NCBI GenBank assembly: GCA_003209275.1
Contig: QCRX01000005.1
Location: 1 to 39,022, forward strand
Length of the DNA: 39,022 nt
Direction: 5' to 3'
Source: Prochlorococcus sp. AG-463-P14
GTDB taxonomy: Bacteria; Cyanobacteriota; Cyanobacteriia; PCC-6307; Cyanobiaceae
How positions within the stretch are numbered: the first letter of the stretch is position 1; the number at the start of each line of letters is the position of its first letter. The translations under genes were made by a program, and so were the position numbers. Positions 3,969 to 14,097 of this stretch are shown piece after piece. The notes under the pieces were generated by a model. It was not told the DNA's origin. It was given only the letters and a program-made list of their open reading frames with translations, and did no database searches.

Positions 3969-4026
3969 ATCTTCTAATTAAAAAAGCCCTCGCTAAAAAG
4001 CGAAGGCTTTTTTTTAATTAGAAGAT
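3969..4026. terminator. Bidirectional Rho-independent terminator between maf and psbC
   Basis: ATCTTCTAATTAAAAAAGCCCTCGC-taaaaa-GCGAAGGCTTTTTTTTAATTAGAAGAT; long inverted repeat with U tracts on both strands between convergent genes. Confidence 0.88.
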
Positions 4027-4045: not shown

Positions 4046-5428
4046 TCAATCCAAATCAGGCATTGCATATACTGGTTCTTTTTTCCTATCGATGCCCTTT
4101 TCAAAGCCCGCTGCTGCTGCACGGGCTCTGCCTGCATGCCATAAATGGCCAATGAAGGTAAACCATCCAAGGAAGAAATGAGCTGATGCAAGCCATTGGC
4201 GGAGGTTAACGAAGTTAACAGCGTTTGGCTCTGTAATGATTCCACCAACAGAGTTGATCGAAGCATTAGGAGCATGAGTCATATACTCAGCAGCTCGACG
4301 AACTTGCCAAGGCTGAATATCATTTTGAATCTTTTCAAGACTCAATCCATTTGGTCCTCGTAAAGGCTCAAGCCAAGGACCACGGAAATCCCAGAAACGC
4401 ATTGTTTCTCCACCAAAGATGATTTCACCCGTAGGTGAACGCATCAAATACTTACCTAGACCTGTAGGGCCCATGGTTGAACCAACCTCAGCACCAATTC
4501 GTTGGTCACGAACTAGGAACGTAAAGCTCTGAGCCTGTGAGGCCTCAGCATTAGTAGGGCCATAAAACTCAGAAGGATATGCAGTGTTGTTGAACCAGAC
4601 AAAAGTTGAAGCATAAAAGCTTGCAACACAAAGTCCGCCTAGTGCATAAGAAAGCAAAGCCTCTCCATTCCAAATGAAGGCTCTTTGAGCCCAACCAAAT
4701 GGCTTGGTTTGCATATGGAAATGACCACCTAAAAGCTGGAGAATTGCGAGGTAGTAATGCCCACCAACAATGTCTTCCATGGAGTTAACTCCAACCAAAG
4801 AACCTCCACCACCCCAAGGTGTTTGGAAGAGGTAACCCAAAATAACTTTTGGATCCATAGTTGGATTAATTAGACGAACTTCCCCTCCACCTGGAGCCCA
4901 GGTGTCATAAGCACCTCCAAGAAACTGCCAGTTAATTGCGAAACAGAGAGAGCCAAAACCAAGAACACATAGATGACGTCCAAGGATTGTGGTCATCTGG
5001 TTCTTATCTCGCCAATCTGTCGAGAAGAAGGGGAAAGCCTCTTCTAATTTTTCAGGGCCGGCTAGTGAGTGCCATACACCGCCAAAGCCTAGAACTGCTG
5101 AGGCGACTAGGTGCACAACACCTGCAGCAAAGAATGGATAGATGTCTGTAACTTCGCCTCCAGGCCCTATCCCATAACCAAACATGGCTACGTGAGGGAT
5201 GCAAATAAGGCCTTGCTCCCACATTGGTTTGTCAAAAGTGAAATGACTAACCTCATACAGAAGCATTGCTCCTGCCCAGAAGACCATTAAGCCAGCATGG
5301 GCAATATGCGCACCAAGAAGTTTCCCAGAGAGGTTTATAAGCCTTGCATTACCTGCATACCAGGTGTAGCCAGACTCCTCAAGGCTTTGTCCAGGGGCTT
5401 TAAGTAGGTTATTAAAGGGCGTTTCCAC
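4046..5428 (-). CDS. psbC: Photosystem II CP43 chlorophyll apoprotein
   Basis: [47 protein letters not shown]...; GTG start at 5428 preceded by GAGGAGG inside psbD; the track's 5506 start is an upstream extension. Confidence 0.96.
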
Positions 5429-6485
5429 GGGGCAGTACCTCCTCAGGGAATACAAAGTTTTCGTGTGGCTGATCAGCAGATGCCATCCAGGCACGCATGC
5501 CCTCATTCAGAAGAATGTTCTTCGTGTAGAAGGTCTCGAACTCAGGATCTTCAGCAGCGCGAATCTCTTGACTAACGAAATCGTAAGCACGCAGGTTTAC
5601 TGCAAGACCAACGATTCCGATAGAAGGAGCCCACATACCCATTACAGGTACTAGCAACATAAAGAAGTGAAGGAATCTCTTATTTGAGAATGCAATACCA
5701 AAAATCTGACTCCAGAAACGGTTTGCAGTCACCATTGAATAAGTTTCTTCTTCCTGTGTTGGATCAAAGCCTCTAAAGGTTGTGCTTTGAGCGGCTCCGC
5801 CACCAGCAGGTGCATCTTCATAGAGGGTGTTCTGCACAGTCGCTCCGTGAATAGCACAAAGAAGTGCTCCACCGAGAATGCCTGCAACTCCCATCATGTG
5901 GAATGGATTAAGAGTCCAGTTGTGGAAGCCCTGAATAAAGAGAATGAAGCGGAAAATTGCTGCTACACCAAAAGATGGAGCAAAGAACCAACTGTGCTGT
6001 CCTAAGGGATAGATCAGGAAAACACTTAGGAAAACAGCAATTGGAGCAGAGAAAGCAAGAGCGTTATAAGGACGCAAAGCGAGGAGGCGAGCAATCTCAA
6101 ACTGACGCAACATGAAGCCAATCAAGGAAAACGTGCCGTGAAGAGCAACGAAGTTCCAGAGACCGCCTAATTGACACCAGCGAACGAAGTCACCTTGAGC
6201 CTCAGGGCCCCAAAGCAAAAGCAGGCTGTGACCCATGGCGTCGCCAGGAGTACTAACAGCAGCAGTAAGGAAATTTGCTCCTTCTAAATAGGAGCTGGCA
6301 ATACCGTGGGTATACCAAGAAGTAACAAAGGTGGTTCCAACGAACCAACCACCAATTGCCAGATAGGCAGTTGGGAAGAGAAGAAGGCCTGACCAGCCAA
6401 CAAAAACGAAGCGGTCGCGCCTAAGCCAGTCATCGAGAACGTCGAACCATCCTCGTTCCTGTGCGCGTCCAACAGCGATCGTCAT
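5412..6485 (-). CDS. psbD: Photosystem II D2 protein
   Basis: [38 protein letters not shown]...; start set at M16 of the track ORF. Confidence 0.97.
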
Positions 6486-6662
6486 GGGAGAAACGGTGCT
6501 GAGCTTGGGGATACCGAGAGACTTTAACAATCTCTAAGGGATATTTGGTGAAAAAGTACCCAGACCTGAAACCCCTTGTATTGGTTATTGACTTCAAGCT
6601 TGCTTTGGATTTGTATTTGATTGCGGTTTTCAGGCCAAAATAAGCCTCTCCTATGACCTGTC

Positions 6663-10993: not shown

Positions 10994-11025
10994 AACTTGA
11001 TCCTCAGGAATTTTGAATTGCAGCA

Positions 11026-11071
11026 TTTTGCAATTGCTTGCATCAAAAATGAACTGCAAGCAATTGCAAAA
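11026..11071. repeat. Perfect 17-bp inverted repeat between convergent genes
   Basis: TTTTGCAATTGCTTGCA - tcaaaaatgaac - TGCAAGCAATTGCAAAA. Confidence 0.85.
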
Positions 11072-11079
11072 TTCAAGTT

Positions 11080-11442: not shown

Positions 11443-11602
11443 GTAAACCCCTTAAAACCGTCCTAAAAAGCGCAAATAAGCACTCGTTAAAGCTGTCGAT
11501 ACAAAAACTTGCTGCAACAGTTCGTGATTCCTAGTGAGAGGAAATCCCACCCCATGAAAGAATATGGGCGTGTGGTGCTTCCGTCAGTCGCTGGCGTCCT
11601 AA

Positions 11603-12142
11603 ATGGCCTCTCTTATTTCTTCCCTGAAACGCTCTCTTACAAGATTACTGATCTTGCTTCCAGTACTAATTGGGCTAAGCCTTAGCCCAATGGCAGCAAG
11701 TGCCCTTTATCCCAGTGACCCATCTTCAGTAGATGTCCTAGACACTAATCTGCATGGGCAAAACCTCCAGAACACTGAGTATGTCAAATACGACCTTTCT
11801 GGAAAGGACCTTGGAGATGCAGATCTAAGTGGCGCTTACTTCAGCGTTACAAATGCGCGTAACGCAAATTTCAGCGGTGCCAATCTCAAAGATGTAATTG
11901 CATATGCAACTCGCTTTGACAACGCTGATCTTTCAGGTGCCGTATTAACCAATGCAGTACTTGATAAGAGCGTATTTGATGGTGCTGCAATCGATGGCGC
12001 CGACTTTACTGGTGCAGTTCTTGACTTGCCTCAACAAAAAGCGCTTTGTGAAAGAGCAACTGGTAAAACCTTTGACAGTCTTGACTGCAACGGACTAGGC
12101 GCCAGTAACAGCTACAGAGCTCCAGTTCAGGCCACTAGCTAA
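11603..12142 (+). CDS. Pentapeptide-repeat protein with N-terminal signal sequence (probably lumenal)
   Basis: Signal-like LLILLPVLIGLSLSPMAASA then A(D/N)LS-type repeats: DADLSGAYFSVTNARNANFSGANLKDVIAYATRFDNADLSGAVLTNAV. Confidence 0.88.
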   Translation: MASLISSLKRSLTRLLILLPVLIGLSLSPMAASALYPSDPSSVDVLDTNLHGQNLQNTEYVKYDLSGKDLGDADLSGAYFSVTNARNANFSGANLKDVIAYATRFDNADLSGAVLTNAVLDKSVFDGAAIDGADFTGAVLDLPQQKALCERATGKTFDSLDCNGLGASNSYRAPVQATS

Positions 12143-12165
12143 ATAGGTATCTAAGACTTCTCAAT

Positions 12166-12187
12166 AAGGCTTTCTTTTAGCTTTTTT
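12166..12187 (+). terminator. Weak candidate terminator of the pentapeptide gene
   Basis: AAGGCT-ttctttt-AGCTTT followed by TTT; one G-U pair. Confidence 0.4.
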
Positions 12188-12258
12188 GATTAGTAAGAGC
12201 TATTTTTGAAACTGCAAAATTATTTGCAGCAGCCTTTCTATGGTTGGTTTTCAAGAAG

Positions 12259-12358
12259 CCTGATAAATACCTAAAGCCGTTTGACCTGAGAATGAATCAC
12301 ATTCAGGGTCCATGAGTTGAATTTCAACTTTTCAAACGGCTTATAGGTATTTATTAGG
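12259..12358 (+). ncRNA. Candidate structured RNA / leader element with three-way-junction fold
   Basis: P1: CCTGATAAATACCTAAAGCCGTTTGA (12259-12284) with TCAAACGGCTTATAGGTATTTATTAGG (12332-12358), 26 pairs, one G-U, one bulged A; P2: CCT-GA-GAATG-aatca-CATTC-AGG (12285-12307); P3: AGTTGA-att-TCAACT (12315-12329). Confidence 0.7.
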
Positions 12359-12364
12359 TCTCAA

Positions 12365-12419
12365 TTGGCATTAATTCCGCCAAGAACTTAAAATTACAAT
12401 GATCAAATCAATTCTGGCG
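12365..12419 (+). promoter_or_regulatory. Mutually exclusive hairpins just upstream of the IF-1-like start codon
   Basis: GCCAA at 12379-12383 can pair with TTGGC (12365-12369), or CGCCAaGAA (12378-12386) with TTCTGGCG (12412-12419); ATG at 12427. Confidence 0.4.
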
Positions 12420-12426
12420 AAGACGC

Positions 12427-12696
12427 ATGATCGAAACATCGGGGGTGATTGAGAAGGAGCAAGGTAATGGGTTCTATCTGGTCACGCTCGAGCAGCCTGC
12501 AGGCCATCAATGCCTATGTAGAGCCGCAGGGAAGTTAACTAAATTTAGGATCAAATTATTAGCCGGAGATAAAGTACTTGTTGAAATTAGTCCCTATGAT
12601 CTAACCAGAGGAAGAATTACTTATAGGGAGCGCAATGCTGGCGCTCCTGGCGGCAGACCAGGTGGCAACCGCCCAGGAGGCCCAAGGAGAAGGTAG
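12427..12696 (+). CDS. infA: Translation initiation factor IF-1-like S1-domain protein with Gly/Arg/Pro-rich tail
   Basis: KFRIKLLAGDKVLVEISPYDLTRGRITYRER matches the IF-1 core; tail NAGAPGGRPGGNRPGGPRRR. Confidence 0.85.
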   Translation: MIETSGVIEKEQGNGFYLVTLEQPAGHQCLCRAAGKLTKFRIKLLAGDKVLVEISPYDLTRGRITYRERNAGAPGGRPGGNRPGGPRRR

Positions 12697-12711
12697 CAAA
12701 TAAAAATAAAA

Positions 12712-14097
12712 TTAATCTACCAAAAGATTAACTATTGCTTCCTTGAATGTACTCCGCTGCTTAACACCTTTCCATTGGCTCTTAAGCACTTTTTCTTTAA
12801 ATAATTGAATAGTTGGCGTTCCATTAATATCTGCCTGCTTAGCAATTTCTTGATCAACTTCAATATCAATTTCAACACCTTGTGCTTGACCCTTTAATTC
12901 TTCAAGAACTCTCTTTAGTTGAGGTTTTAATACATGACAGGGGCCACAAGCTGACGATGTATAAACAACCAACAAAGGTTTTCTACTCTCATGATAAAGC
13001 TTACGCAAAGCAAAACTACCCTTTTGCCATAAGGCATCTTGCTTGTAATTGCTTTCCGTTGATATCTCTGTAAAATTATTTTTTTCAATCTGTTCTGGTT
13101 CCAATTCTGTCCTTTTAATCAATTTTGCAAGGCTTCTCAAGCTAAGCCATCTCTCTGCAGCCAAAGAAGCTTTACAGCCTGCACCTGCTGCTGTAATTCC
13201 TTGACGCCATTCAGGGTCTGCGACATCTCCTGCAGCAAAAACTCCCTCAACTGAACTTTCTGGCCGTCCAGGGCTTGTAACTATGTAACCTCCAGAATCA
13301 AGAGCTAGTTGCTCACCTAAGAAATCTGTATTTGGCTTATGACCTATTGCATAGAAAAGCCCTCTTAACTCGAGAGTGTAAACCTGATCATTTTCTCCTG
13401 TTCTCAATTCAAGCTTCTCAAGCCATTCATCTCCTTCAACTCCTATTACTTCCGTATTCCAATGAACAGTGATTTGGGTATTTGCTAAAACTCTGTCTGC
13501 TAAAGCAGCACTGGCTCGAAGTTTTTTAGATCGAACTAGCAAATGGACATGGCTTCCAAACTTTGTGAGATAAACGGCCTCCTCACACGCTGAGTCCCCG
13601 CCACCAACAACAGCCAATTCCTCATCACGAAACTGAGGAGTCGCTCCATCACATATCGCACAGGCACTTATACCTTTACTCCAAAAACGATTCTCTTCAG
13701 GCAAATGAAGACGATTTGCTCTAGCACCTGTAGCGATAATTAGAGAATGAGCTTGAATAACGCCCTCGTCAGATTCAATTTTGAATGGCCGAACACTTAG
13801 ATCTATCGATTGCGCATCCGCCTCAACAAGCTTTGTTCCCCAGCGAATAGCTTGAGCCTTTATTAAATCCATTAACTCTGGTCCCATAACACCATCGGGG
13901 AACCCAGGGAAATTCTCTACGAAGGTTGTGGTCATCAACTGGCCACCTGGTATACCGCCTGAATTAAAACCTGTAATTAGAAGTGGTTGCAAATTGGCTC
14001 TTGCTGCATATATCGCTGCTGTATACCCCGCAGGCCCAGAACCAATAATCACTAAATTTTCAATTTGAGAAGAGTTCGAACTGCTCACACTATCCAT
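12712..14097 (-). CDS. NADPH-thioredoxin reductase fused to thioredoxin (NTRC type)
   Basis: N-terminal GSGPAGYTAAIYAARANL, CAICDG; C-terminal thioredoxin domain VVYTSSACGPCHVLKPQLKRVL. Confidence 0.92.
   Translation of the reverse strand: MDSVSSSNSSQIENLVIIGSGPAGYTAAIYAARANLQPLLITGFNSGGIPGGQLMTTTFVENFPGFPDGVMGPELMDLIKAQAIRWGTKLVEADAQSIDLSVRPFKIESDEGVIQAHSLIIATGARANRLHLPEENRFWSKGISACAICDGATPQFRDEELAVVGGGDSACEEAVYLTKFGSHVHLLVRSKKLRASAALADRVLANTQITVHWNTEVIGVEGDEWLEKLELRTGENDQVYTLELRGLFYAIGHKPNTDFLGEQLALDSGGYIVTSPGRPESSVEGVFAAGDVADPEWRQGITAAGAGCKASLAAERWLSLRSLAKLIKRTELEPEQIEKNNFTEISTESNYKQDALWQKGSFALRKLYHESRKPLLVVYTSSACGPCHVLKPQLKRVLEELKGQAQGVEIDIEVDQEIAKQADINGTPTIQLFKEKVLKSQWKGVKQRSTFKEAIVNLLVD

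Follow-up and report, generated by a model that had tools for sequence, protein, structure and literature searches.

A long hairpin without a U tract, probably of the 3'-end type, between a pentapeptide-repeat gene and infA in Prochlorococcus sp. AG-463-P14

Genetic organization of the pentapeptide-repeat and infA region

The window analyzed in this study is the whole stretch of 39,022 nucleotides from contig QCRX01000005.1 of Prochlorococcus sp. AG-463-P14. A gene encoding a pentapeptide-repeat protein is located at 11603-12142 on the plus strand (Pfam PF00805, E 4.3e-17), and is followed on the same strand by a gene at 12427-12696 that the first-pass annotation had described as infA-like. 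The latter is a genuine infA encoding translation initiation factor IF-1, with a TIGR00008 score of 63.7 bits, above the cutoff of 61.15, and a match to PF01176. The pentapeptide-repeat gene adjoins infA here and in two relatives, G041 and G042, and is found at other loci in G013 and G021. Its presence beside infA in only some relatives indicates that it was moved or inserted next to infA in one lineage.

Just past the pentapeptide stop codon lies a weak hairpin whose 3' arm is rich in T (12161-12189, plus strand; MFE -8.2 kcal/mol, z -0.9), which is possibly a weak intrinsic terminator and was not called by the terminator scan. Behind this weak U-tract hairpin, beginning about 115 nt past the same stop codon, a long hairpin with a 26-bp stem ends 68 nt before the infA ATG, and no terminator was found by the scan at this stem. 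Both the weak hairpin upstream and the 68-nt distance agree with what had been described before.

Structure of the long hairpin

The stem is formed on the plus strand by a left arm at 12259-12284 (CCTGATAAATACCTAAAGCCGTTTGA) and a right arm at 12332-12358 (TCAAACGGCTTATAGGTATTTATTAGG), which form 26 base pairs, one of them G-U, and leave one bulged A in the right arm. A total of 47 nt (12285-12331) is enclosed between them, and the geometry given in the first-pass annotation is thereby confirmed. The whole hairpin has an MFE of -50.8 kcal/mol compared with a mean of -22.0 for dinucleotide shuffles (z -9.3), and none of the 200 shuffles folded as well. The minus strand of the region also folds strongly (MFE -43.4, z -7.3), so the strand is not fixed by folding.

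Two small hairpins had been placed in the interior, giving a three-way junction with the long stem. They do form in the MFE structure (about 12284-12309 and 12314-12330). However, the 47-nt interior alone gives a z of -1.53, and 14 of 200 shuffles fold as well, which is structure at chance level. The three-way junction is therefore no evidence for a structured RNA. The claim of a structure far above chance holds true for the long stem, and it is only there, not in the junction, that the significance sits.

T runs of four or more are absent in and after the right arm on either strand, the longest being three, which bears out the lack of a U tract noticed from the letters. A canonical intrinsic (L-shaped) terminator was accordingly rejected for this stem, as the U tract is missing and the terminator scan was negative. 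There is no ORF in the compact 100-nt fold.

The infA promoter

A probable infA promoter was found on the plus strand at 12365-12394, composed of TTGGCA (12365-12370), a spacing of 18 nt and TAAAAT (12389-12394). It is the only plus strand promoter-like site in the region 11560-12760; the promoter scan by itself is not significant, and the weight rests on the conservation of the -10 element. When 55 infA upstream regions were compared, several of them from closely related genomes and not independent, -10 elements of the TAAAAT/TAAACT type gave 43 matches in the 8-nt bin that covers -40 to -33 relative to the infA ATG, and at most seven -10-like matches in every other bin. The peak spans genera with coding DNA only about 70% identical. 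Based on this conserved element, the start of the infA mRNA is expected near 12400, 3' of the hairpin, which would then be no part of the transcript. The hairpin stands just upstream of the promoter, with 6 bp between the end of its right arm and the -35 hexamer.

This location bears directly on the cis-regulatory leader (riboswitch, thermosensor or protein-binding leader) that the first-pass annotation had offered as one reading. A strong structure (z -9.3), co-directional with infA and 68 nt before its ATG, would suit such a leader in the infA 5' UTR, but the conserved infA -10 element lies 3' of the hairpin, and no Rfam family matches. Conserved or covarying structure was not found upstream of infA in relatives, and nothing comparable occurs in the other infA upstream regions, apart from the unrelated 3'-end hairpin of G042. 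The position of the -10 element thus argues against a hairpin inside the infA 5' UTR, as far as can be judged from sequence, and we regard a leader as very unlikely.

The short distance to the -35 hexamer could also suggest that the palindrome acts as DNA, either by cruciform extrusion or by binding a dimeric protein beside the infA -35 box. The 47-nt spacer disfavors extrusion and is unlike an operator, a conserved palindrome is absent at the same place in relatives, and the long hairpins of the own genome are located at gene ends and not generally beside promoters. Such a DNA-level element is highly improbable.

A free-standing small RNA is another of the earlier proposals, and we consider it unlikely. 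The very stable and compact 100-nt fold without an ORF is consistent with it, and such RNAs can be lineage-specific; against it, no plus strand promoter-like site lies upstream of the hairpin in the region 11560-12760, the interior is not significantly structured, and no homologue was detected by sequence or covariance model. A lineage-specific structured RNA, free or processed as an sRNA from the 3' UTR, in which a three-way junction on a 26-bp stem of RNase III size would act in trans or on infA expression, is quite unlikely as well.

Searches for related sequences

A second copy of the element was not detected in the own genome by DNA search or covariance model, in an assembly that is 64% complete. 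The covariance model, built from the element alone, recovered there only the element and its opposite strand, and matched nothing further in 300 family genomes under stricter filters. DNA searches revealed no relative in 400 family genomes, with the best match outside the own genome at E 0.001 over 25 nt, and none in phages and plasmids, where one 30-nt chance match was obtained. The arm pattern AAATACCT-N(1-2)-AAGCCGTTTGA had six matches in GTDB genomes and ten in IMG/VR. These matches are unpaired, the second arm being absent nearby in the flanks shown with them, and a small set of phage sequences accounts for those that recur. Between the pentapeptide-repeat gene and infA, the sequence is not alignable with that of the two relatives having the same gene order.

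Infernal searches against Rfam with loose limits returned just chance matches to plant or animal miRNAs and to CRISPR repeats. The best score, 22 bits, fell short of the gathering score of 135, and no score rose above gathering. No Rfam family fits the element, in agreement with the first-pass annotation, which did not recognize it as a named cyanobacterial RNA and had proposed this comparison together with the search of the own genome for a repeat family.

The single copy found in the own genome speaks against a MITE-like palindromic mobile element, intact or as a remnant, the last of the readings put forward before. Its arms would be the terminal inverted repeats, and long inverted repeats indeed flank a short interior in a sequence that is missing from relatives. 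But the assembly, at 64% completeness, holds one copy only; nothing related was found in the 400 family genomes, phages or plasmids, the GTDB and IMG/VR pattern matches lack the second arm, and no target-site duplication is visible at the hairpin flanks. The mobile element is improbable and gained no support from these searches. An attC-like integron site was also rejected by eye, since the core triplets mismatch the core-site consensus and the stem is continuous.

Hairpins downstream of the pentapeptide-repeat gene in the family

Homologues of the pentapeptide-repeat gene are present in 384 of the 400 family genomes. The downstream flanks of 28 of them were read, the window's own included. 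A stem score of at least 14 was obtained downstream of the pentapeptide stop codon in 24 of these 28 loci (median 19.5), which are related and not independent, and in none of the 28 either upstream of the gene or within its coding region. No sequence relationship is seen between the hairpins of different genera. The family thus has, as a rule, a long hairpin behind the pentapeptide-repeat gene. Its stem persists as the letters change, and the hairpin in the window is likely the local version of it, owned by the pentapeptide-repeat gene. Sequence turnover in the gap behind this widespread gene has left a long hairpin in place, which suggests that selection acts on the stem and not on the letters.

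The hairpins of the relatives are similar to the one in the window in having stems of 14-30 bp, an intergenic location, the same gene upstream, and sequences that are not conserved between genera. They differ from it in their loops, mostly of 3-8 nt, in the A/T tracts that many of them carry in the arms, and in the next gene, which is convergent in most relatives and co-directional here. In most relatives the hairpin starts no more than 30 nt past the pentapeptide stop codon. As for the two relatives sharing the pentapeptide-infA order, G042 possesses its own 17-bp and 27-bp hairpins in the gap, and the hairpin of G041 is shorter and has a T run. The two hairpins of G042 are consecutive on contig L211, extending from the pentapeptide stop to about 110 nt beyond, with an MFE of -65.8 in 120 nt.

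Inverted repeats in the own genome

Near-perfect inverted repeats were surveyed in the own assembly of 1.136 Mb, for which ORFs were called crudely. Thirty-six of them are intergenic, although intergenic DNA makes up about 16% of the sequence, and the block-shuffled genome contained six in all. Among these intergenic repeats, 18 lie between convergent genes, seven and four between co-directional genes, and two between divergent genes. This placement, rich in convergent and poor in divergent pairs, matches that of 3'-end hairpins.

A stricter survey, restricted to inverted repeats of 16 bp or more, found 18 in intergenic regions. The element ranks with the four best near-perfect repeats in the assembly, and a shuffled genome yielded none. 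No run of four T is present on either strand in ten of the 18 longest intergenic repeats, so that a missing U tract is common in the own genome. The 47-nt interior is the sole one longer than 30 nt among the intergenic repeats, and it is only for this branched loop that the element is unusual in its genome.

A putative 3'-end hairpin

We consider it fairly probable that the gap separating the pentapeptide-repeat gene from the infA promoter holds a terminator-like hairpin of the 3'-end type, which lacks a U tract ('I-shaped'), evolves fast and is specific to the lineage. The -10 element of infA conserved downstream of it, the long unrelated hairpins behind the pentapeptide-repeat gene in most relatives, and the mostly 3'-end placement of such hairpins in the own genome all point to this. 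On the other side, the missing U tract makes efficient intrinsic termination doubtful, and the distance of about 115 nt from the stop codon, the 47-nt interior and the co-directional next gene are points against a 3'-end role. Most likely the element is an ordinary 3'-end hairpin with an unusual loop rather than a new leader RNA with a regulatory role, its branched loop probably being incidental. The obvious reading of the fold is thereby corrected: strong structures upstream of a translation-factor gene are not necessarily leaders of that gene.

According to the proposed mechanism, RNA polymerase would not stop at the weak U-tract hairpin (12161-12189) and would go on to transcribe the long palindrome. 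The palindrome may then fold at the transcript end, where it would slow or stop transcription, block 3'-to-5' exonucleases, or both. The 3' end of the pentapeptide mRNA would in this way be set and protected by the hairpin, and the infA promoter might be shielded from read-through. Such a function would bear on how bacteria thought to be without Rho mark transcript ends in the absence of a U tract.

REP/BIME-type 3' hairpins protect mRNA ends from exonucleases, and by analogy the stable 3' stem proposed here may stop 3'-to-5' exonucleases in the same manner. REP elements constitute repeated families, whereas the hairpin in the window is single-copy.

The cyanobacteria examined have no Rho, and their transcript ends are marked by intrinsic hairpins (PMC3219970). 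In Synechococcus PCC 7002, hairpins with a U tract (L-shaped) and without it (I-shaped) were told apart by the WebGeSTer classes, 3' hairpins were discussed as exonuclease barriers, and the L-shaped ones go with longer half-lives than the I-shaped (PMC7406221). The element resembles the I-shaped class as a strong hairpin behind a gene in a cyanobacterium, a member of a group thought to be without Rho: a stable hairpin is found past the stop codon (26-bp stem, MFE -50.8, about 115 nt), and no U tract follows the stem. It differs in its branched loop of 47 nt, where a loop of a few nt is typical though not strictly defining, as well as in its distance from the stop codon and its position behind a weak U-tract hairpin.

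Other inverted repeats and an IsrR match

Further inverted repeats were noticed in the window and elsewhere in the assembly. A nested inverted repeat at 3969-4026, about 26 bp long and with T runs on each strand, is located at the 3' end of psbC, opposite a convergent gene, and is probably a bidirectional terminator. At 11025-11072, 34 nt past a small ORF, an inverted repeat of 18 bp pairs perfectly around a 12-nt loop and lacks a U tract. Two perfect intergenic inverted repeats of 25 bp (L188, 676-733) and 23 bp (L139, 4636-4694) in the own genome exceed most terminators in length.

The region 4831-5014 on the plus strand matches the Rfam family IsrR (RF01419), the antisense RNA of isiA, with 126 bits against a gathering score of 52. 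The opposite strand at this place is psbC, encoding CP43 (TIGR01153; ORF 4046-5506), which overlaps psbD (5412-6530). The match may reflect the sequence homology between psbC and isiA rather than a true IsrR, or it may be a psbC antisense RNA.
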